Origin: Fusobacterium varium
GTDB lineage: Bacteria; Fusobacteriota; Fusobacteriia; Fusobacteriales; Fusobacteriaceae
DNA length: 64,000 nt
Assembly: GCA_002356455.1 (NCBI GenBank)
Contig: AP017968.1
Span: 1,116,001-1,180,000 of the forward strand
Reading direction: 5' to 3'
Each line of letters starts with the position of its first letter. Position 1 is the first letter of the stretch. Below are positions 26,712 to 61,552 of the stretch, one piece after another. The notes under the pieces are model-generated. The model made no database searches. It saw only the letters and a program-made list of their open reading frames with translations, and was not told the DNA's origin. The translations under genes were made by a program, and so were the position numbers.

Positions 26712-27041
26712 ATGGAAGTTTTTATACATCATATATATGAATATCAAAAAGGAATTAGGAACCTTATATTACACACTACAGATAAAAAAAATATTGAAAT
26801 TATAAAAGAAAAATTAAATTCTGAAAATATAGACTATATAATATATCCTTTAGGAAAACAGAGAATAAATGTATTTTTTGGAGCAAAGGAATGTGTAGAA
26901 GTAATAAAGAATATAAATAAACTTTCTTTAACAGCCTATACTCCTGAAGAAGATTTTATATTGGGAATAATGCTTGGATATGACAGAAAAAAACAATGTG
27001 AAAGATTTTTAAAATTTAAAGAGAAAGTAATAAGTGCATAA
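26712..27041 (+). CDS. Small DUF2023-like protein
   Basis: The 109-residue cytosolic protein starts MEVFIHHIYEYQKGIRNLIL, which I recognise as DUF2023-like. It contains FGAKECVEVIKNINK and ends in a charged helix. Function is unknown. It has a good promoter, a GGAGG ribosome binding site and its own terminator, so it is a stand-alone gene divergent from uvrB. Confidence 0.7.
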   Translation: MEVFIHHIYEYQKGIRNLILHTTDKKNIEIIKEKLNSENIDYIIYPLGKQRINVFFGAKECVEVIKNINKLSLTAYTPEEDFILGIMLGYDRKKQCERFLKFKEKVISA

Positions 27042-27175: not shown

Positions 27176-28642
27176 CTACTTTTTCTTTTTTAAAGCTGAT
27201 ACTATAGAGAGAACAGTTAAAATTAAAAATACTATAGTTATTGGTCTAGTGTATAAGAAACTATATGATCCCTCATACATTAAAACAGCTTTTCTTAAAT
27301 TAGTTTCAAGCATTGGTCCTAAAATTACAGCTAAAACTATTGGAGAACTAGGCATTTTTATTTTTGACATTATATATCCAATTATTCCAAAAATAAAAGT
27401 AACTCCTACATCAAATAAGCTATTATTCATAGAATATGATCCAATAGTTGAAAGAATTAATATAGCTGGAATCATTAAAGTTTTAGGAATTTCAACAATT
27501 CTGCTATAGAATTTTATACCTGCTAATCCTATAAATAATAAAAGAATATTTCCAATTATCATAGAACTAAATAATCCATAAACAATTTCAGGATTTTGTT
27601 CAAAAAGTAGTGGACCTGGAGTTAATCCTTGAATTATAAGTGCTCCTAAAAGAACAGCAGCAACAGCATCTCCAGGCACTCCAAGAGTAAGCAGAGGAAC
27701 CAATGCTCCTCCAGTTACTCCATTATTACCAGATTCAGGAGCAGAGATACCAATAAGACTTCCTTCTCCAAATTTCTCATTTTTATTACTTCTTTTAGCT
27801 TCATTGTAACATACAAAGGCAGCAATATCAGCGCCAGCACCAGGAATAGACCCTATAAAAGTTCCAATAGCTCCACATTTAAGTATAGTTGGAAGACAAT
27901 GTTTTATTTCTTTCCAGTTCATATAGTTTTTATCCATAACAATATCTGTTTTTATTTCTTTTTCTCCTACTAAAGTTTCTATTTGATTAAAAACTTCTGA
28001 TACAGCAAATAATCCTATAAGAACAGGGATAACTGAAAATCCATTAAGAAGATCTACTACACCAAAGGTAAATCTGGGATAGCTTGTTATAGCGTCCATA
28101 CCAAAACAAGATATTAATAATCCTATCATACCTGCAATTATTCCTTTTAAAAAGTTTTCAGCAGATATACTTGCAATGATAGTGAGCCCAAACAAAGCTA
28201 AAGCAAAGTATTCAGGAGCAGAAAATCTCAAAGCAAATTTTGCTAGTACAGGTGATATAGTAATAAGAGCCAGACAACTGATAAGACCACCTAAAGCTGA
28301 GGCAATAGTAGATGCACTGAGAGCTTTTGCAGGATATCCTTTTTTTACTAGAGCATAACCATCAAAACAGGTAGCAGCAGATGCTGGTGTTCCAGGAGTA
28401 TTTAAAAGGATAGCTGAAATAGATCCACCATAAATAGCTCCTATATATATTCCTACAAGCATGATAAGACCAGTAACTGCATCCATACCAAATGTAAAAG
28501 GAAGAAGAATAGCAACTCCCATTGTTGCAGTAAGCCCTGGAAGAGCTCCAATAACAATTCCACCAGTTACTCCCAGAATTAGATAAAATAGATTACCTAA
28601 CAACAGAGCTGTAGATAAACCTTGTATTAAATGACTAAACAT
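27176..28642 (-). CDS. tctA: Tripartite tricarboxylate-type transporter, large membrane subunit (TctA)
   Basis: The 488-residue protein has about 11-12 hydrophobic segments and the TctA signature GSISAILLNTPGTPASAATCFDGYALVKKG. A second family repeat follows at GSIPGAGADIAAFVCYNEAKR. It forms the membrane channel that takes substrate from the TctC binding protein, powered by an ion gradient. It is the last gene of tctC-tctB-tctA. The substrate cannot be read from TctA; the shared operator with KDPG/KDG genes suggests a sugar acid rather than citrate. Confidence 0.92.
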   Translation of the reverse strand: MFSHLIQGLSTALLLGNLFYLILGVTGGIVIGALPGLTATMGVAILLPFTFGMDAVTGLIMLVGIYIGAIYGGSISAILLNTPGTPASAATCFDGYALVKKGYPAKALSASTIASALGGLISCLALITISPVLAKFALRFSAPEYFALALFGLTIIASISAENFLKGIIAGMIGLLISCFGMDAITSYPRFTFGVVDLLNGFSVIPVLIGLFAVSEVFNQIETLVGEKEIKTDIVMDKNYMNWKEIKHCLPTILKCGAIGTFIGSIPGAGADIAAFVCYNEAKRSNKNEKFGEGSLIGISAPESGNNGVTGGALVPLLTLGVPGDAVAAVLLGALIIQGLTPGPLLFEQNPEIVYGLFSSMIIGNILLLFIGLAGIKFYSRIVEIPKTLMIPAILILSTIGSYSMNNSLFDVGVTFIFGIIGYIMSKIKMPSSPIVLAVILGPMLETNLRKAVLMYEGSYSFLYTRPITIVFLILTVLSIVSALKKKK

Positions 28643-28667
28643 TTTATGTTTCCCCCTCTATTTTAAA

Positions 28668-29108
28668 TTAGATGAATAATCCTGTAGGTAAAGATACTTT
28701 AAAAGCATAAGTAAATAATAAGTACAAAGCTACAGGAAATATTACTGCAAATATTATGTTTAATATCTTAGATTTGCTCTTTAAAATAGTTATTACAACA
28801 AAAGCAAAGATTATAGTAGATATTAAATAACCAATTCTATCTATAAGAAATACATATACTGCAAAAGTAAAAATTACCATGAAAGTATATTTCATATTTG
28901 GATTATAAATACTTTTTTTATCTTTATTTCTTATACTTCCTATAAAAAGCATAGCAGATAGTATAAATAAAATAATTGCAATAATTTTAGGAAAGAAATC
29001 AGGACCTAGTCCAGAATCTCCTATAAAAGCCATATTAAATTGAGTAGATGAATAAAAAATAAAAGCACTAACTATACATAAAAATGCAGAAAAAATAGTT
29101 TCTAACAA
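28668..29108 (-). CDS. tctB: Tripartite tricarboxylate-type transporter, small membrane subunit (TctB)
   Basis: The protein of about 146 residues has four hydrophobic segments and is the poorly conserved small subunit of TTT transporters. I chose the TTG at 29108 (LETIFSAFLCIVSAF) because GGGGG lies about 8 nt upstream. A longer frame from an ATG at 29162 would have to start inside a terminator hairpin. It lies between tctC and tctA. Confidence 0.82.
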   Translation of the reverse strand: MLETIFSAFLCIVSAFIFYSSTQFNMAFIGDSGLGPDFFPKIIAIILFILSAMLFIGSIRNKDKKSIYNPNMKYTFMVIFTFAVYVFLIDRIGYLISTIIFAFVVITILKSKSKILNIIFAVIFPVALYLLFTYAFKVSLPTGLFI

Positions 29109-29126
29109 AATTAATCCCCCTTTTAT

Positions 29127-29155
29127 AAAAAAGGTTACTAATAAACATAGTAACC
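29127..29155 (-). terminator. Terminator/attenuator between tctC and tctB
   Basis: GGTTACTA (29133-29140) and TAGTAACC (29148-29155) form a perfect 8-bp stem with a 7-nt loop. Read leftward it is followed by TTTTTT. It separates the binding-protein gene from the membrane-subunit genes and should keep tctC transcripts in excess. Confidence 0.8.
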
Positions 29156-29187
29156 TTTTCATACATTAATTTAAGAATTTTATATGA

Positions 29188-30114
29188 CTATTTTAAAGAT
29201 TTTACTATTGAGTCTATTGTGGCAGTATCATCTATTATAAATGTTTCAAAGTCTTTTCCATTTAGATATTTGATTCCAAATGTAGAATTGTTCATAAAAT
29301 CTTTAAAGTCATCTGATTCAACAGATTTTTTAATAGCAGCATCAAGAGCAGCAACTATTTCAGGTGATGTTCCTTTAGGTACTGCAATACCTCTCCAAGT
29401 ACCAGAAACAACATCATGTCCTAATTCTTTTAATGTAGCAACATCTGGAAGGCTTTCAATTCTAGCATCAGCCATGATTCCTAAAGCTCTCAATTGACCA
29501 GCTTTTAATTGCCCAATAGCTTCTCCTGGTCCCATTAAAGAGAAATCAGCATGTTTTCCTAATAATGCTGGGATAACTTCTCCAGCTCCATTATATGGAA
29601 TATGATTAAATTTTACGCCAGCTTCATTTTCTATAGCTAAAGCATAAAAATTAGGTTTAGCTGTACTTGCAAATTTTATTTTTTCAGGATTTGCTTTCGC
29701 ATCTGCCAAAAGTTCATCTAAAGTTTGGTATTTAGAATCTTTTTCAACTAAAACAACAGCAGGATCCATGTTTACTAAAGATACTAATTCAAAATCTTTA
29801 TAGCTAATAGGAGAAAGGTTCATTAAAGGTAATGAAACAATTTCTCTAGTTATCATTGTAATTGTATAACCATCTTTCTTTTGAGTAGCTCCAAAAGTCA
29901 TTCCTACAGCTCCAGCACCTCCAGTTTTATTAACTATAACTACTGAAGTTCCAAGTTCTTTTTCCATAAGACTACCTAATTTTCTAGCAACTGCATCTGT
30001 TCCGCCACCAGCACTGAATGGTACAATCATATTGATATTTTTACTAGGATAAGCTTTAGCAAAGGCACAAGCAGCCATTAAAGTGAAAATAATCATCATA
30101 AGTTTTTTTCTCAT
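29188..30114 (-). CDS. tctC: Tripartite tricarboxylate-type transporter, substrate-binding protein (TctC)
   Basis: The 308-residue periplasmic binding protein starts with a signal peptide (RKKLMMIIFTLMAACAFAKA). The family sequence YPSKNINMIVPFSAGGGTDAVARKL follows, and NHIPYNGAGEVIPALLGKHADF forms a second ligand-site region. TctC-type proteins bind carboxylated substrates and pass them to TctAB. It is the first gene of the operon, divergent from the IclR regulator, and its leader carries a long inverted repeat. Confidence 0.92.
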   Translation of the reverse strand: MRKKLMMIIFTLMAACAFAKAYPSKNINMIVPFSAGGGTDAVARKLGSLMEKELGTSVVIVNKTGGAGAVGMTFGATQKKDGYTITMITREIVSLPLMNLSPISYKDFELVSLVNMDPAVVLVEKDSKYQTLDELLADAKANPEKIKFASTAKPNFYALAIENEAGVKFNHIPYNGAGEVIPALLGKHADFSLMGPGEAIGQLKAGQLRALGIMADARIESLPDVATLKELGHDVVSGTWRGIAVPKGTSPEIVAALDAAIKKSVESDDFKDFMNNSTFGIKYLNGKDFETFIIDDTATIDSIVKSLK

Positions 30115-30298: not shown

Positions 30299-30312
30299 TT
30301 TCATATATGAAA
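30299..30312. promoter_or_regulatory. Operator O1 (probable IclR-family site)
   Basis: TTTCATATATGAAA is a perfect palindrome between tctC and the IclR gene. It shares its CATATATG core and length with three other sites (30386, 32800, 32895). Confidence 0.65.
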
Positions 30313-30385: not shown

Positions 30386-30399
30386 TTCCATATATGGAA
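30386..30399. promoter_or_regulatory. Operator O2 overlapping the iclR -35 region
   Basis: TTCCATATATGGAA is a perfect palindrome. A TATAAT at 30408-30413 lies where a -10 would be, so this site covers the -35 and suits autoregulation of the regulator. Confidence 0.68.
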
Positions 30400-30490: not shown

Positions 30491-31249
30491 ATGGAAAGTG
30501 AAAAAAAAGTTCCTGCAATAGAAAAAGCAGATAAGATATTTAAATATCTTTATTATAAAGAATCAGCTACACAAGCAGATATTTCAAAAGATTTAGAAAT
30601 ACCTAAGGCAACAACAAACAGACTTTTATCAGTTCTAACAGAACTTAAATATTTAAATTTAGAAGGAAGAGAATACAAAATAGGAGAAAAATTTTATTTT
30701 TTTTCAAATAAGCATGAAAGATATACTCTTATAAAAAATATTGCATATCCATATTTGGAAGAATTATCTTTAAAGTTTAAGGAAACCTTTAAAATAAGCG
30801 TTTTGGATGAAGATAAAATAAGAAGCATAGGAAAAGTGGAGAGCAGTGATTTTATCAAAATATCAGTTTCTGAAAATGCAATATTTCCATTACATGCAGG
30901 AGCAGCAAGTAAACTTTTAATATGTCAGCTAAGTGAGAACAAATTAAATAAACTTTTAGAAAGAACTCTCCCTAAATATACTGAAAATACTATAACTGAT
31001 AGGGAAGAATTAAAAAGAGAACTTCTTAAAATAAACATAAATAAACTTTCTTTTGATAATATGGAGCATTCAGTAAATATAAGAGCTGTAGCAGTTCCTA
31101 TACTGGATAGTAAAAATAGAATAGTAGCTGCTGTGAGCTGTCCATGTTTTCCAGATTCTTTGACAGATGAGAGAGCATTGAAGATAGCTGAGTCTATGAG
31201 AAAATCATGTGAAGAAATTTCTAAAAGATTAGAGTATTTTAATAAATAG
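30491..31249 (+). CDS. IclR-family transcriptional regulator
   Basis: The 252-residue protein has an N-terminal winged helix (KADKIFKYLYYKESATQADISKDLEIPKATTNRLLSVL) and a C-terminal IclR effector domain with FPLHAGAASKLLICQ and SVNIRAVAVPILDS. IclR proteins such as KdgR sense small organic acids, including KDG. It is divergent from tctCBA and upstream of eda-kdgK. Four matching palindromes around these genes suggest it controls both operons and itself. The start follows GGGGGGA with good spacing. Confidence 0.9.
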   Translation: MESEKKVPAIEKADKIFKYLYYKESATQADISKDLEIPKATTNRLLSVLTELKYLNLEGREYKIGEKFYFFSNKHERYTLIKNIAYPYLEELSLKFKETFKISVLDEDKIRSIGKVESSDFIKISVSENAIFPLHAGAASKLLICQLSENKLNKLLERTLPKYTENTITDREELKRELLKININKLSFDNMEHSVNIRAVAVPILDSKNRIVAAVSCPCFPDSLTDERALKIAESMRKSCEEISKRLEYFNK

Positions 31250-31310: not shown

Positions 31311-32749
31311 ATTTCTTAGGAAATTATAATTTGATAAATTTGTTAAAAAAATAAAAAATGTTAATTATTTTGTATTCATATTAGATATATTAATTGAATA
31401 AGATTAAAATTGACAGCACAAAAAAGCTGATTGTTAATCAGCTTTTTAGCGATATTCTTTCCAGCAAATGGAGCCTGTATGTATATTAAAATATGATATT
31501 TTTTTAACTTTCATTCTGGTATTACATTTAAAACAATAAAAAGGATTTACTCCAAAAGTTTTCCATATTTCAAGTTGATAAAAAGTAAAATTGGAATATT
31601 TAGAGACATATTTTCTCATGAATTTCATGATGTTTTTAAGTTCTGATTTAATATTTCTAGAATAGATTCCAAAGCGCCTAATCATTTTGAAATGTTTAGG
31701 GGGAATGTGAATAATTAATTTGGAAAGAAATGTTTCCGCATCTAAAGTAAGTTCAATTCTTTGTTTATCATCAGCAAGACTTTCATAATAGAAAGTAACC
31801 TTATTATCATAGAAATCAATAATTTTATATTCTGCGATAGGAGCTCTTGATAGATATCTGCCAATATATTTAATTGCATGAATATTATTATTTAAATCAT
31901 TTTTTGCAACATTGAAAAAGAATCTTGTATTTTTGCGATAAAGGTAGTTAGCAGCAGCATAAGCTTTAGCTTTAATTTCAGGCTTGTCATAATTTCCAGA
32001 TTTAACAATATCAATAACCATTTTTTTCCATTGTCCAGCAATGGAATTGACATGAAAATATTTTTTTTCAAGAAATTGGTAGTTTTTATTGAATCCACCT
32101 AAAGTAACAATAGCATGAATATGAGGATTCCATTTAAGATCGCGTCCAAAGGTATGAATAACAGTAATCAATCCATAATGAATGATATCTGAGTTAGTAA
32201 AGTATTTAGAGGAATATTTTGAAATTTTATGAATTCTTTGATTTTTTGCTTTAATGTTATGAAATTGATATTTAAAAACATCATTAACAGCATAAGCAAG
32301 CTTAGTTAAAAGGTCTCTATCATAGAAGAAAAACATTCTAAGTTCTTCAGGAATAGTAAAAAGGACACTTCTATGTTTAACATCAATAAGAGAAGTGGAA
32401 GTTTTTTCAGTTCAAACAGCAGAATAACGTTTACCGCAGGAAGGACAAAATCTAGATTTACAAGTAACTTTAATTTTATGCGCCTCATGACAATTAGGGC
32501 ATTGAAGAGAGAGAAAAGATTTATCAATAGAACAAGCTAAGAATTTTTGAATAGTCTGTTTAACATCCTCAAAATGTTCATTTTTAAAATATTTCTTGAT
32601 TTTACCTAAAAGATTTGTTATATTGATTTTAGAGATAATATGTTTGATTTGCATGAATGTCTCCTTTGTATAATTAGGGTGGTAACTATATTATACAAAA
32701 AAGAGAGCTGAGTAAAACATTTTTTTAAATGTTACTCAGCTTTTTTTAT
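31309..32749 (-). mobile_element. IS91-family insertion sequence, copy B
   Basis: It is nearly identical to copies A and C over its full length (1441 bp; one T fewer in the right hairpin loop than copy A). It is inserted at the T-tract of the iclR terminator and separates iclR from the eda-kdgK operon that carries the same operator palindromes. It has the same internal layout and end hairpins. Confidence 0.9.
31446..32654 (-). pseudogene. IS91-family transposase interrupted by an in-frame UGA (copy B)
   Basis: It has the same structure as copy A: a zinc-binding N-terminal piece (32654-32412), UGA at codon 81 (32414-32412), and continued frame with HUH and YIGRY motifs to 31446. Four residues in the C-terminal part differ from copy A (Tyr to His in NNNIYAIKY, Ser to Phe, and two Ala to Thr). 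The N-terminal piece is identical. No other stop or frameshift has arisen despite this drift. Confidence 0.85.
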
Positions 32750-32799
32750 TAAATTTATAAATAGAATATAGTTATAGAAGTAGGAAAATATATAAAAAA

Positions 32800-32813
32800 T
32801 TCCATATATGAAA
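32800..32813. promoter_or_regulatory. Operator O3 upstream of eda
   Basis: TTCCATATATGAAA combines the half-sites of O1 and O2. It lies about 50 bp from the right end of IS copy B. Confidence 0.6.
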
Positions 32814-32894: not shown

Positions 32895-32908
32895 TTCCAT
32901 ATATGGAA
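32895..32908. promoter_or_regulatory. Operator O4 upstream of eda
   Basis: TTCCATATATGGAA is identical to O2 and lies about 20 bp upstream of the probable eda -35 element. O3 and O4 are 95 bp apart centre to centre, similar to the 87 bp between O1 and O2. Confidence 0.66.
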
Positions 32909-33026: not shown

Positions 33027-33662
33027 ATGTTAAAAAAAAGCAAAATTTTAAAAAAAATAACTGATATAGGAATAGTAGCAGTGGTAAGAAGTGAAACTAT
33101 AGAAGAAGGAATCAGAATTTCTAAAGCTTGTGTAGAGGGTGGAATTCCTGCAATAGAAGTTACATATACTGTACCAGGAGCAACTGAAGTAATAAAAGCT
33201 CTTAAAGAACAATTTACTTCAGAGGAATTAGTTATAGGTGCAGGGACTGTATTAGATGCAGCTACTGCCAGAATCGCTATTTTAGCTGGATCAGAATTTA
33301 TAGTTTCTCCTGCTTTTGATGAAGAGACAGCAAAATTGTGTAATCTATATCAAGTACCATATATGCCAGGGTGCATGACAATTACTGAAATAACTAAAGC
33401 TATGCAGTATGGAGCAGATATTGTAAAACTTTTTCCTGGAAGTGCTTTTGGACCATCATTTGTAAAAGCTGTAAAAGCTCCGCTTCCTCAAGCAAATATT
33501 ATGCCTACAGGTGGAGTGAGCCTAGAAAATATAGATGAATGGTTTAAAAATGGTGTAGTTGCTGTAGGAGCAGGAGGAAAATTAGCTTCAGGATCTAGTG
33601 AAGATATTATAGCCACAGCTAAAGCATTTGTGGAAAAAATAAAAGAAATAAGAAATAAATAA
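33027..33662 (+). CDS. eda: KHG/KDPG aldolase
   Basis: The 211-residue class I aldolase splits 2-keto-3-deoxy-6-phosphogluconate into pyruvate and glyceraldehyde 3-phosphate. Motifs are VRSETIEEGIRISKACVEGG, the GAGTVLDAATA segment, the MPGCMTITEITKAMQYGADIVKLFPGS block with the Schiff-base lysine, and the PTGGV phosphate loop. It has an AGGAGG site. It is followed by kdgK, whose start codon is 28 bp after the eda stop. Confidence 0.94.
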   Translation: MLKKSKILKKITDIGIVAVVRSETIEEGIRISKACVEGGIPAIEVTYTVPGATEVIKALKEQFTSEELVIGAGTVLDAATARIAILAGSEFIVSPAFDEETAKLCNLYQVPYMPGCMTITEITKAMQYGADIVKLFPGSAFGPSFVKAVKAPLPQANIMPTGGVSLENIDEWFKNGVVAVGAGGKLASGSSEDIIATAKAFVEKIKEIRNK

Positions 33663-33690
33663 TATGGCATATTTGGAGGAAAGAACTGTA

Positions 33691-34728
33691 ATGGGTAAAA
33701 TATTTGATTTTAAAAATAAGGAATTTGGATTAATATGCAGTGGAGAGATGATAATGAGACTTTCTCCCCTAAATAATGAAATGCTGATTCAAGGACATTT
33801 ACTTGAAAAACAAATGGGAGGAGCAGAATTTAATGTTGCCAGTGGAGTATCAATATTGGGAGAAAAGACTGCCATAATAACAAAACTTCCAGAGAATGAA
33901 CTAGGAAAATTCGCAAAAAGGATAATAAGTTCTAATGGTGTAAGTGATGAATTTGTAGTATATGATGAATCTAAAAATAAAAGATTAGCCATTTACTATT
34001 ATGAATATGGTTCATCACCAAGAAAACCTAATGTAACATATGACAGACAAAATTCATCTTTTCAATCTTTTAAAATAGATGAAATTGATGATTCTATATA
34101 CAATAGAGCAGAGATTTTTCATACAAGTGGAATAACATTAGGATTATGTGAAAATTCGAATAAATTGACTCATAATCTTATTAAGAATTTTAAAAATGGA
34201 GGAGCATTAGTATCTTTTGATGTAAATTTCAGAAGAAATCTTTGGACTGAAGAAGAGGCAAGAATAGAGATTGAAAAATTACTGCCATCTGTAGATATAC
34301 TTTTTGCTTCAGAGGAAACTTTTAGAAAAATGTTCAAAAAGACAGGAAATTTAGAAGATATAATAAGAGCTTTTGCAAAAGAATATAATATCTCGTTTAT
34401 TGCCTCTACTCAAAGAACAGTAAATTCCCCAAAATCTCATAATTTTACTTCCTTAGTGTATAGTAAAAAAAGTGATGCTTTCTGCTTTGAAACTCCATAT
34501 GAAAATATTGAAATAGTAGATAGAATAGGAAGTGGAGATGCCTATGTAGCAGGAGTTCTTTATGGAATACTAAAACATAATAATCTGGAAAAAGCAATGA
34601 AATATGGGAATGCTAATTCAGTATTGAAAAATACAATAGTAGGAGATATATCGTGTGCAGATGTTGCCCTTGTAGAGAATATAATAGCTGATCATGAGAA
34701 TGGAAATACAAGTGAGATGAATAGATAA
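33691..34728 (+). CDS. kdgK: 2-keto-3-deoxygluconate kinase (PfkB family)
   Basis: This PfkB-family sugar kinase of about 345 residues probably phosphorylates KDG to KDPG, the substrate of the adjacent aldolase. Visible are the N-terminal ICSGEMIMRLSPLNNE, the substrate-side GGAEFNVASGVSILG, FDVNFRRNLW and the catalytic DRIGSGDAYVAGVLYG. The ATG at 33691 follows GGAGG; an upstream in-frame ATG at 33664 lies before that site. KDG specificity comes mainly from context with eda. Confidence 0.88.
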   Translation: MGKIFDFKNKEFGLICSGEMIMRLSPLNNEMLIQGHLLEKQMGGAEFNVASGVSILGEKTAIITKLPENELGKFAKRIISSNGVSDEFVVYDESKNKRLAIYYYEYGSSPRKPNVTYDRQNSSFQSFKIDEIDDSIYNRAEIFHTSGITLGLCENSNKLTHNLIKNFKNGGALVSFDVNFRRNLWTEEEARIEIEKLLPSVDILFASEETFRKMFKKTGNLEDIIRAFAKEYNISFIASTQRTVNSPKSHNFTSLVYSKKSDAFCFETPYENIEIVDRIGSGDAYVAGVLYGILKHNNLEKAMKYGNANSVLKNTIVGDISCADVALVENIIADHENGNTSEMNR

Positions 34729-59752: not shown

Positions 59753-61194
59753 TTATTTCTTAGGAAATTATAATTTGATAAATTTGTTGAAAAAATAAAA
59801 AATGTTAATTATTTTGTATTCATATTAGATATATTAATTGAATAAGATTAAAATTGACAGCACAAAAAAGCTGATTGTTAATCAGCTGTTTAGCGATATT
59901 CTTTCCAGCAAATGGAGCCTGTATGTATATTAAAATATGATATTTTTTTAACTTTCATTCTGGCATTACATTTAAAACAATAAAAAGGATTTACTCCAAA
60001 AGCGTTCCATATTTCAAGTTGATAAAAAGTAGAATTGGAATATTTAGAGACATATTTTCTCATGAATTTCATGATGTTTTTAAGTTCTGATTTAATATTT
60101 CTAGAATAGATTCCAAAGCGCCTAATCATTTTGAAATGTTTAGGGGGAATGTGAATAATTAATTTGGAAAGAAATGTTTCCACATCTAAAGTAAGCTCAA
60201 TTCTTTGTTTATCATCAGCAAGACTTTCATAATAGAAAGTAACCTTATTATCATAGAAATCAACAATTTTATATTCTGCGATAGGAGCTCTTGACAGATA
60301 TCTGCCAATATATTTAATTGCATAAATATTATTATTTAAATCATTTTTTGCAACATTGAAAAAGAATCTTGTATTTTTGCGATAAAGGTAGTTAGCAGCA
60401 GCATAAGCTTTAGCTTTAATTTCAGGCTTGTCATAATTTCCAGATTTAACAATATCAATAACCATTTTTTTCCATTGTCCAGCAATGGAATTGACATGAA
60501 AATATTTTTTTTCAAGAAATTGGAAGTTTTTATTGAATCCACCTAAAGTAACAATAGCATGAATATGAGGGTTCCATTTAAGATCGCGCCCAAAGGTATG
60601 AATAACAGTAATCAATCCATAATGAATGATATCTGAGTTAGTAAAGTATTTAGAGGAATATTTTGAAATTTTATGAATTCTTTGATTTTTTGCTTTAATG
60701 TTATGAAATTGATATTTAAAAACATCATTAACAGCATAAGCAAGCTTAGTTAAAAGGTCTCTATCATAGAAGAAAAACATTCTAAGTTCTTCAGGAATAG
60801 TAAAAAGGACACTTCTATGTTTAACATCAATAAGAGAAGTGGAAGTTTTTTCAGTTCAAACAGCAGAATAACGTTTACCACAGGAAGGACAAAATCTAGA
60901 TTTACAAGTAACTTTAATTTTATGCGCCTCATGACACTTAGGGCATTGAAGAGAGAGAAAAGATTTATCAATAGAACAAGCTAAGAATTTTTGAATAGTC
61001 TGTTTAACATCCTCAAAATGTTCATTTTTAAAATATTTCTTGATTTTACCTAAAAGATTTGTTATATTGACTTTAGAGATAATATGTTTGATTTGCATGA
61101 ATGTCTCCTTTGTATAATTAGGGTGGTAACTATATTATACAAAAAAGAGAGCTGAGTAAAACATTTTTTTTAAATGTTACTCAGCTTTTTTTAT
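59753..61194 (-). mobile_element. IS91-family insertion sequence, copy C
   Basis: This is the third nearly identical copy (1442 bp). Its left end lies at the T-tract of the DUF4026 terminator. Its right end runs into the 3' end of the leftward DUF1971-type gene and supplies that gene's last codons and stop. Confidence 0.9.
59890..61098 (-). pseudogene. IS91-family transposase interrupted by an in-frame UGA (copy C)
   Basis: The layout is as in copies A and B: zinc-binding part 61098-60856, UGA at codon 81 (60858-60856), then the HUH/YIGRY part to 59890. It differs from copy A by two residues in the first part (Ile to Val, Asn to Lys in CPNC) and four in the second. The UGA is unchanged. Confidence 0.85.
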
Positions 61195-61552
61195 TTCTTC
61201 TCCTATTTCTTCAGCAGTTATTTCACTGGCAGAAGCTTCTATGTCTGGATTTAAAAATTTAAGGTTATCTGAATAGAATTCTACCTTTAATTTTACAGGA
61301 CCAGTGATAATCACATGGTGCTCCCTTTCAGGAAAAATAACTATAGGATGACATCTGTCTGCTGTATAGATTTTATCAGGTTCATCTTCCCAGACAAAAT
61401 CTGCTGTTCCTTCAACGATAACAAGATAACCATACTTTTCTTTTGGAGATGTATGAGATTGGAGTATTTCCCTGAATATATTTTTTTCGTTCATAATAGG
61501 AGTTTCTCCTATTTTTTTTTAAATTTACTGGTAATTGCTCAAATTGAAACAT
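61177..61552 (-). pseudogene. DUF1971/TehB-N-like cupin, frameshifted at a poly-A tract
   Basis: The intact part (from 61494) encodes a small beta-barrel protein with YGYLVIVEGTADFVWED and IVIFPEREHHVIITGPVKLKVEFY, like the DUF1971 family linked to tellurite-resistance proteins. A better start lies at 61552 behind GGAGG. It reads MFQFEQLPVNLKK but is out of frame because of nine A in a row (61520-61512). With eight A the frame would continue KIGETPIMNEKN into the rest. The 3' end (KAE and stop) comes from IS copy C. A product starting at ATG 61494 is possible but truncated. Confidence 0.75.

Follow-up and report, generated by a model that had tools for sequence, protein, structure and literature searches.

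The window analysed here, a stretch of 64,000 bp of Fusobacterium varium DNA (positions 1,116,001 to 1,180,000 of GenBank accession number AP017968.1, assembly GCA_002356455.1), includes the genes tctC, tctB and tctA of a tripartite tricarboxylate transporter (TTT), a divergent gene for an IclR-family regulator, and eda and kdgK, which are assigned to the 2-keto-3-deoxy-D-gluconate (KDG) pathway. TctABC genes are commonly labelled citrate or tricarboxylate transporters. Judged from the sequence evidence, replacing this citrate-type label by that of a predicted importer of a KDG-pathway sugar acid is sound. The cargo is very probably a sugar acid of this pathway rather than citrate, and the transporter probably imports a monomeric 3-deoxy-2-keto hexonate-type sugar acid, for which free KDG is the most likely candidate, with KDG itself slightly favoured over a precursor. 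The nearest alternatives are the next-upstream relatives of KDG that arise from unsaturated uronates, namely 5-keto-4-deoxyuronate (DKI), 4-deoxy-L-erythro-5-hexoseulose uronate (DEH) and 2,5-diketo-3-deoxygluconate (DKII), and the likelihoods given for KDG and for DKI/DEH overlap, the two not being exclusive.

The three transporter genes lie on the reverse strand in the order tctC-tctB-tctA, separated by gaps of 25 bp, and together encode the three domains whose co-occurrence defines the TTT family, each scoring above its curated cut-off. They are tctC (29188-30114), for a periplasmic substrate-binding protein of 308 aa (PF03401, 173.7 bits), tctB (28668-29162), for the small membrane subunit of 164 aa (PF07331, 83.3 bits), and tctA (27176-28642), for the large membrane subunit of 488 aa (PF01970, 533.5 bits). 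By a crude hydropathy count, the sole measure applied, TctA and TctB include 12 and six hydrophobic stretches, respectively, and the N-terminus of TctC reads as a signal-peptide-like stretch. The predicted structure of TctC (predicted local distance difference test score 91.6, predicted template modelling score 0.83) matched eleven TctC-type entries with Z of 31.7-37.8 in a fold library with entries up to 2026-04-08 that did not list PDB 25HK, the next entry being at Z 15.4. The model is that of a two-domain periplasmic binding protein with a confidently predicted Bug/TctC fold.

The link between the transporter and the KDG pathway is provided by a 14-bp palindrome, TTYCATATATGRAA, of which there are four copies in the window. 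Two are in the intergenic region between tctC and iclR (30299-30312, TTTCATATATGAAA, and 30386-30399, TTCCATATATGGAA) and two are upstream of eda-kdgK (32800-32813, TTCCATATATGAAA, and 32895-32908, TTCCATATATGGAA), and the claim of an earlier note on this DNA that the tct genes share operators with the genes for 2-keto-3-deoxy-6-phosphogluconate (KDPG) aldolase and KDG kinase is borne out by the positions of these four copies upstream of the genes. Only 0.04 such words are expected in the window under a third-order Markov model of its sequence. The whole 4.12-Mb genome contains five exact copies and none of a reversed control word, and the fifth copy is located within a 531-aa frame that has no apparent connection to this system. 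When up to two mismatches from TTCCATATATGGAA were permitted, 111 matches were found genome-wide versus 33 for the control word, and weaker sites therefore cannot be told singly from noise, nor can a wider regulon be read from them. A search for a longer palindrome pattern gave no result. Promoter-like matches around the operators differed from those in shuffled sequences by less than one standard deviation, and hence the position of the sites does not reveal whether the regulator is a repressor or an activator.

The palindromes are conserved in relatives. Of 11 loci with eda, ten have at least one exact copy upstream of this gene, and of the eight loci examined for tctC, six have one upstream of tctC; G006 is an exception in both cases, and the other exception for tctC is Cetobacterium, whose tctC forms part of the eda operon. 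When ten eda upstream regions were aligned (nine from the genus, some of them close relatives, and that of Cetobacterium, with G006 left out as it has no exact site), 20 of the 43 invariant columns fell within the two 14-bp sites, mean column identity being 61 %. The first site is invariant at 12 of 14 positions and the second at eight of 14, and one of the two is degenerate in some genomes (the second in G001, G003 and G004, the first in G007 and G011). All six tctC upstream regions compared, which represent two genera and omit G006 and Cetobacterium, share an aligned tctC-proximal site, with one or two letters changed in G009 and G031. The palindromes are hence confirmed, at the level of sequence, as putative operators shared by the importer and eda-kdgK and conserved in relatives including Cetobacterium. 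An exact copy is also present in G011 (L130:10939) upstream of a gene for an EamA-family transporter just past kdgK.

The presumed reader of the palindromes is the 252-aa product of iclR (30491-31249, forward strand), which is divergent from tctC-tctB-tctA. The earlier note had described it as of the IclR type that includes KdgR, and the first part of this description holds (PF01614 and PF09339). The second is a weak hint, as the protein reaches only 78.9 bits on the KdgR equivalog model NF011671 versus a cut-off of 275, and the PcaR/PcaU/PobR, BhcR, IclR and AllR models score it higher than the KdgR model, every score being below the respective cut-off. In the KdgR regulons of enterobacteria, KDG genes are under IclR-family control through a palindrome, an arrangement from which the present one differs in that its regulator falls below the KdgR equivalog cut-off. 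The corresponding iclR frame in G010 (L021:6281-6823) is 180 aa long, and is probably frameshifted or truncated.

The two enzyme genes are on the forward strand. The product of eda (33027-33662, 211 aa) is a KDPG/2-keto-4-hydroxyglutarate aldolase (NF005119, 295 bits, cut-off 238; TIGR01182, 185.4 bits, cut-off 156.05), and that of kdgK (33664-34728, 354 aa) is a PfkB-family protein (PF00294) resembling KDG kinases and is the sole homologue in this genome at E <= 1e-15. In the scheme that we propose, TctC would catch the acid in the periplasm and TctA and TctB would bring it inside by means of an ion gradient, as expected from the family; KdgK would then phosphorylate KDG to KDPG and Eda would split KDPG into pyruvate and glyceraldehyde-3-phosphate, as their enzyme families predict. 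The IclR-type regulator would control importer and pathway jointly via the paired palindromes, which are observed, whereas binding, sign and effector are presumed.

Gene neighbourhoods in Fusobacteriota are consistent with this scheme. In Cetobacterium sp. 2A, iclR is divergent from a single set of genes, eda-kdgK-tctC-tctB-tctA, with an operator before eda. The gene order of the window, minus an insertion element (see below), is found in G008 and G010, and in G008 tctA is directly followed by a gene for KduD (NF005390, 412 bits, cut-off 369; TIGR01832, 335.7 bits, just under the cut-off of 338.85). In G009, a block read as uxaC-uxuA-uxuB followed by a tripartite ATP-independent periplasmic (TRAP) transporter lies between eda-kdgK and iclR-tctCBA. 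The tctA orthologues of these three genomes are 97-98 % identical to that of the window, and those of G029 and G031, from another genus, are 86-87 % identical. There, the TTT adjoins iclR-TRAP-kduI-kduD, with a cupin gene also present in G029 and an operator before tctC. An uncultured Fusobacteriaceae metagenome-assembled genome (L026, the same as G048) has two kdgK genes and genes for UxuA, UxaC and a TRAP transporter beside its TTT. Overall, eda, kdgK or kdu genes are nearby in eight of the nine distinct loci behind the ten Fusobacteriota TctC proteins that group with that of the window, the exception being G006.

Among 12 genomes of the genus, ten have a kdgK orthologue (at least 70 % identity) and five a tctC orthologue (at least 72 % identity). 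The five genomes with kdgK that lack this TTT (G001, G003, G004, G007 and G011; L125, L126, L127, L129 and L130) have instead a gene for an AEC-like permease divergent from eda-kdgK, each with an exact operator in the intervening gap; the assignment is from PF03547 for the G003 copy and from sequence likeness for the other four. Thus, the permease slot of the regulon appears exchangeable between the TTT and an AEC-like permease, as if one KDG permease had replaced another. A bolder proposal, which we regard as possible but doubtful, is that of a TTT dedicated to free monomeric KDG that can be exchanged for an AEC-family permease within a single IclR regulon.

The closest solved chain to TctC by sequence is PDB 25HK (E 2.8e-99, 52 % identity), which the deposition states to be the TTT-C protein of Vibrio sp. 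C42. According to the corresponding paper (PMC13390454), 25HK binds unsaturated uronate oligosaccharides that are products of alginate lyase, with dissociation constants of 18 nM to 40 uM, some with errors exceeding the value (e.g. 61 +/- 145 nM), and does not bind citrate, D-glucuronate or malate. The ligand mixture also contained a small share of monomers and the pose of the ligand was docked; eleven residues picked from the docking were mutated and seven of the mutants lost binding (PMC13390454). All seven essential residues (F19, G24, T25, D26, P104, G183 and T225) are identical in the window TctC, as are E165 and R227 among the remaining four. The Vibrio locus resembles that of F. varium in also leading to KDG, KdgK and Eda, and differs in that its regulators are of the GntR type whereas that of the window is of the IclR family, and in its reported ligands, which are oligosaccharides; the F. 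varium genome has no match to PF05426, PF07940 or PF07470. In a phylogenetic tree of TctC, from which only within-clade grouping was used because the outgroup branches are very long, the window protein falls into a clade of ten Fusobacteriota rows (support 100/100), apart from the 29-row clade that includes 25HK (100/99).

The capacities of the organism also bear on the cargo. No match to UxaC (PF02614) was found in the genome by a search that was positive in seven of 14 control genomes, and there was none to GH88 (PF07470), PF07940 or PF05426, the lyase families searched for (others, including PF08787, were outside the search). The organism is without the tested enzymes for hexuronates and uronate oligosaccharides, and these absences together with the single kdgK make both classes of compound unlikely cargo. 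KduI and KduD are present; their genes adjoin a separate TRAP transporter and a different IclR gene, and the exact palindrome is absent from that locus. There are two eda-type aldolases, the second beside DgoK and a TRAP transporter. This gene content should permit F. varium to convert DKI to KDG and to break KDG down to pyruvate and glyceraldehyde-3-phosphate. A second TTT (L106, G000:C1:2003001-2021000) resembles that of the window in being accompanied by a sugar-acid enzyme, in this case a glucarate-dehydratase-like protein (646.7 bits, cut-off 828.7), and differs in gene order and neighbours, its TctC being just 25-28 % identical to the window TctC. It is likely an aldarate transporter.

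Several observations weigh against KDG as the cargo. KDG does not appear among the compounds tested on 25HK in the accessible parts of the paper (PMC13390454), and the two remaining docking-picked residues are changed in the window TctC (G20 to S, S164 to G; positions 34 and 178 of the window protein), position 164 being G in all ten rows of the window clade and S in 27 of the 29 rows that group with 25HK. Throughout the wider clade (55 of 55 rows) the seven essential residues are retained, and none of ten outgroup rows has them; being invariant within the clade, they mark the clade rather than the ligand and do not tell KDG from oligosaccharides. The best NCBIfam models for KdgK are of the KDG-kinase or aldolase/kinase-fusion types, all with scores below cut-off. 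The G029 and G031 loci have a gene for an RraA-like protein after tctA, and neither eda nor kdgK was seen in the 20-kb stretches examined. The TTT of G006 lies at a contig end beside genes read as galKTE, with no exact operator, and iclR-kdgK-eda are elsewhere. Beyond the Fusobacteriota, a Synergistete locus (L038) has kdgK-tctCBA, but among 66 loci of wider TctC relatives, within the flanks covered, eda is present in seven and kdgK in at most 11, and 30 have at least one of seven marker families. In this count L033 and L035 appear to be a single contig that was binned twice, and one kdgK match (L029) reads as a ribokinase. By position or zero tree distance, L025 is the same as G013, L026 as G048 and L029 as G038. 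The 13 outgroup loci have none of the marker families save one RraA. A link between TctC and KDG genes across the whole wider clade was considered and rejected, as most of the loci lack it. Hence, the argument from context is strong in Fusobacteriota and weak in other lineages.

What, then, is imported? The case for citrate is that the first characterised TTTs bind it, as listed in a review table, and that the fold matches of TctC include BugD, MatC and TphC. A sugar acid is preferred over a tricarboxylate, as the earlier note had also held, because the shared operators are conserved, because all of the genes form a single operon in Cetobacterium, and because 25HK is reported negative for citrate and, likewise, malate (PMC13390454). 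The note's remark that no citrate genes are near also agrees with what was found, none being recognised among the ten larger flanking proteins scanned (17887-40015, E <= 1e-60; smaller frames, e.g. 26712-27038, were unscanned), of which seven are from DNA/tRNA-maintenance or polysaccharide genes and three are without a match. Citrate is therefore an unlikely cargo, and a conventional citrate or di/tricarboxylate TTT whose regulator is shared with eda-kdgK by chance is highly improbable. Hexuronates and aldonates, which the note had listed with KDG, have not fared as well as KDG, which stays the best candidate. In other genomes, TTTs have been predicted for galactonate, with dgoK and a gene for an IclR-family regulator alongside, and for galactarate/glucarate (PMC5507952), and like that of the window they adjoin sugar-acid enzymes; they are likened here by description only, are genomic predictions, and involve another kinase and another sugar. 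The metagenome-assembled genome mentioned above has uxaC and uxuA beside its TTT, but its uxa/uxu locus and that of G009 have their own TRAP transporters, F. varium has no UxaC, and glucuronate is reported not to bind to 25HK (PMC13390454). For an aldonate there is no local enzyme, DgoK being at a separate locus with a TRAP transporter. Either kind of cargo seems very unlikely.

Unsaturated uronate oligosaccharides, whether alginate or glycosaminoglycan fragments, have been proposed for 25HK from Vibrio growth and isothermal titration calorimetry data (PMC13390454), and the 52 % identity and the seven retained residues speak for the same cargo here. However, the window TctC is in a different clade and F. 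varium has no known cutting enzyme of the three families PF05426, PF07940 and PF07470, and we consider this cargo highly improbable. DKI and DEH were added to the candidates because of the KduD gene after tctA in G008 and the kdu loci next to the TTT in G029 and G031 (with kduI, kduD, cupin and TRAP genes). If DKI, DEH or another 4-deoxy-5-keto or unsaturated uronate monomer were imported, KduI and KduD, which F. varium has, would convert it to KDG inside the cell, and the ligands reported for 25HK are lyase products (PMC13390454). Nevertheless, a separate TRAP transporter and a different IclR gene accompany the kdu loci, the TTT genes of the window, of G010 and of Cetobacterium have no recognised kdu gene next to them, and the F. 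varium kdu locus is without the exact palindrome. Such a monomer is on balance unlikely to be the cargo, though this possibility overlaps with import of KDG, which we continue to prefer.

The element that separates iclR from the eda operators (31406-32750, reverse strand) belongs to the IS91 family (NF033538, 154.5 bits, model positions 133-355 of 356) and is outside the system. Its ends are approximate, as the coordinates are those of the 1,345-bp stretch used as query. The window includes three copies that are 98.7-100 % identical (1098-2442, 31406-32750 and 59850-61195), the outer two sharing 98.7-99.0 % identity with the middle copy. None was found in the compared stretches of G008, G009 and G010, and the similarity between G008 and the window ends at 31324 and resumes at 32784.

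Further TctC loci deserve mention. Three in Fusobacteriaceae (L145-L147) encode a TctC that is 52-53 % identical to the window TctC, beside a sodium:solute symporter, and two of the three include a weak PL17-like match (24-25 % over 233 aa), as in an alginate-type locus within the same family. Several lineages encode an RraA-like protein next to a TTT and an IclR-family gene (L142:12448-13107, L143:7119-7778, L031:1228-1905 and L034:968-1645). In marine gammaproteobacteria, a small protein family of the c3 type (approximately 157 aa) is encoded near tctC (L030:9415-9969 and 39 other loci), and no Pfam match was found for the single copy scanned. Of ten marine loci examined closely, nine have the c3 gene directly before tctC, one of these also with a sodium:solute symporter nearby, and the tenth is without c3.

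Sugar-acid TTTs have already been predicted in the literature, and KDG as a TTT substrate would be new as far as our full-text literature search shows; no proposal of a TTT for KDG was found among the titles, abstract openings and passages searched, with most subscription journals outside the search. A citrate label on these genes would mislead metabolic models of fusobacteria. The AEC-like permease becomes a second candidate KDG permease in the same regulon. If the TTT is indeed a dedicated KDG importer, then KDG itself would be scavenged after release by other uronate degraders, and a monomeric 3-deoxy-2-keto acid may be the real ligand throughout the 25HK clade, given that the mixture used held monomers, the pose was docked and some of the calorimetric errors exceed the values. 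KDG is a directly testable ligand for a TctC clade with members in Fusobacteriota, Spirochaetota, Synergistota and marine gammaproteobacteria.

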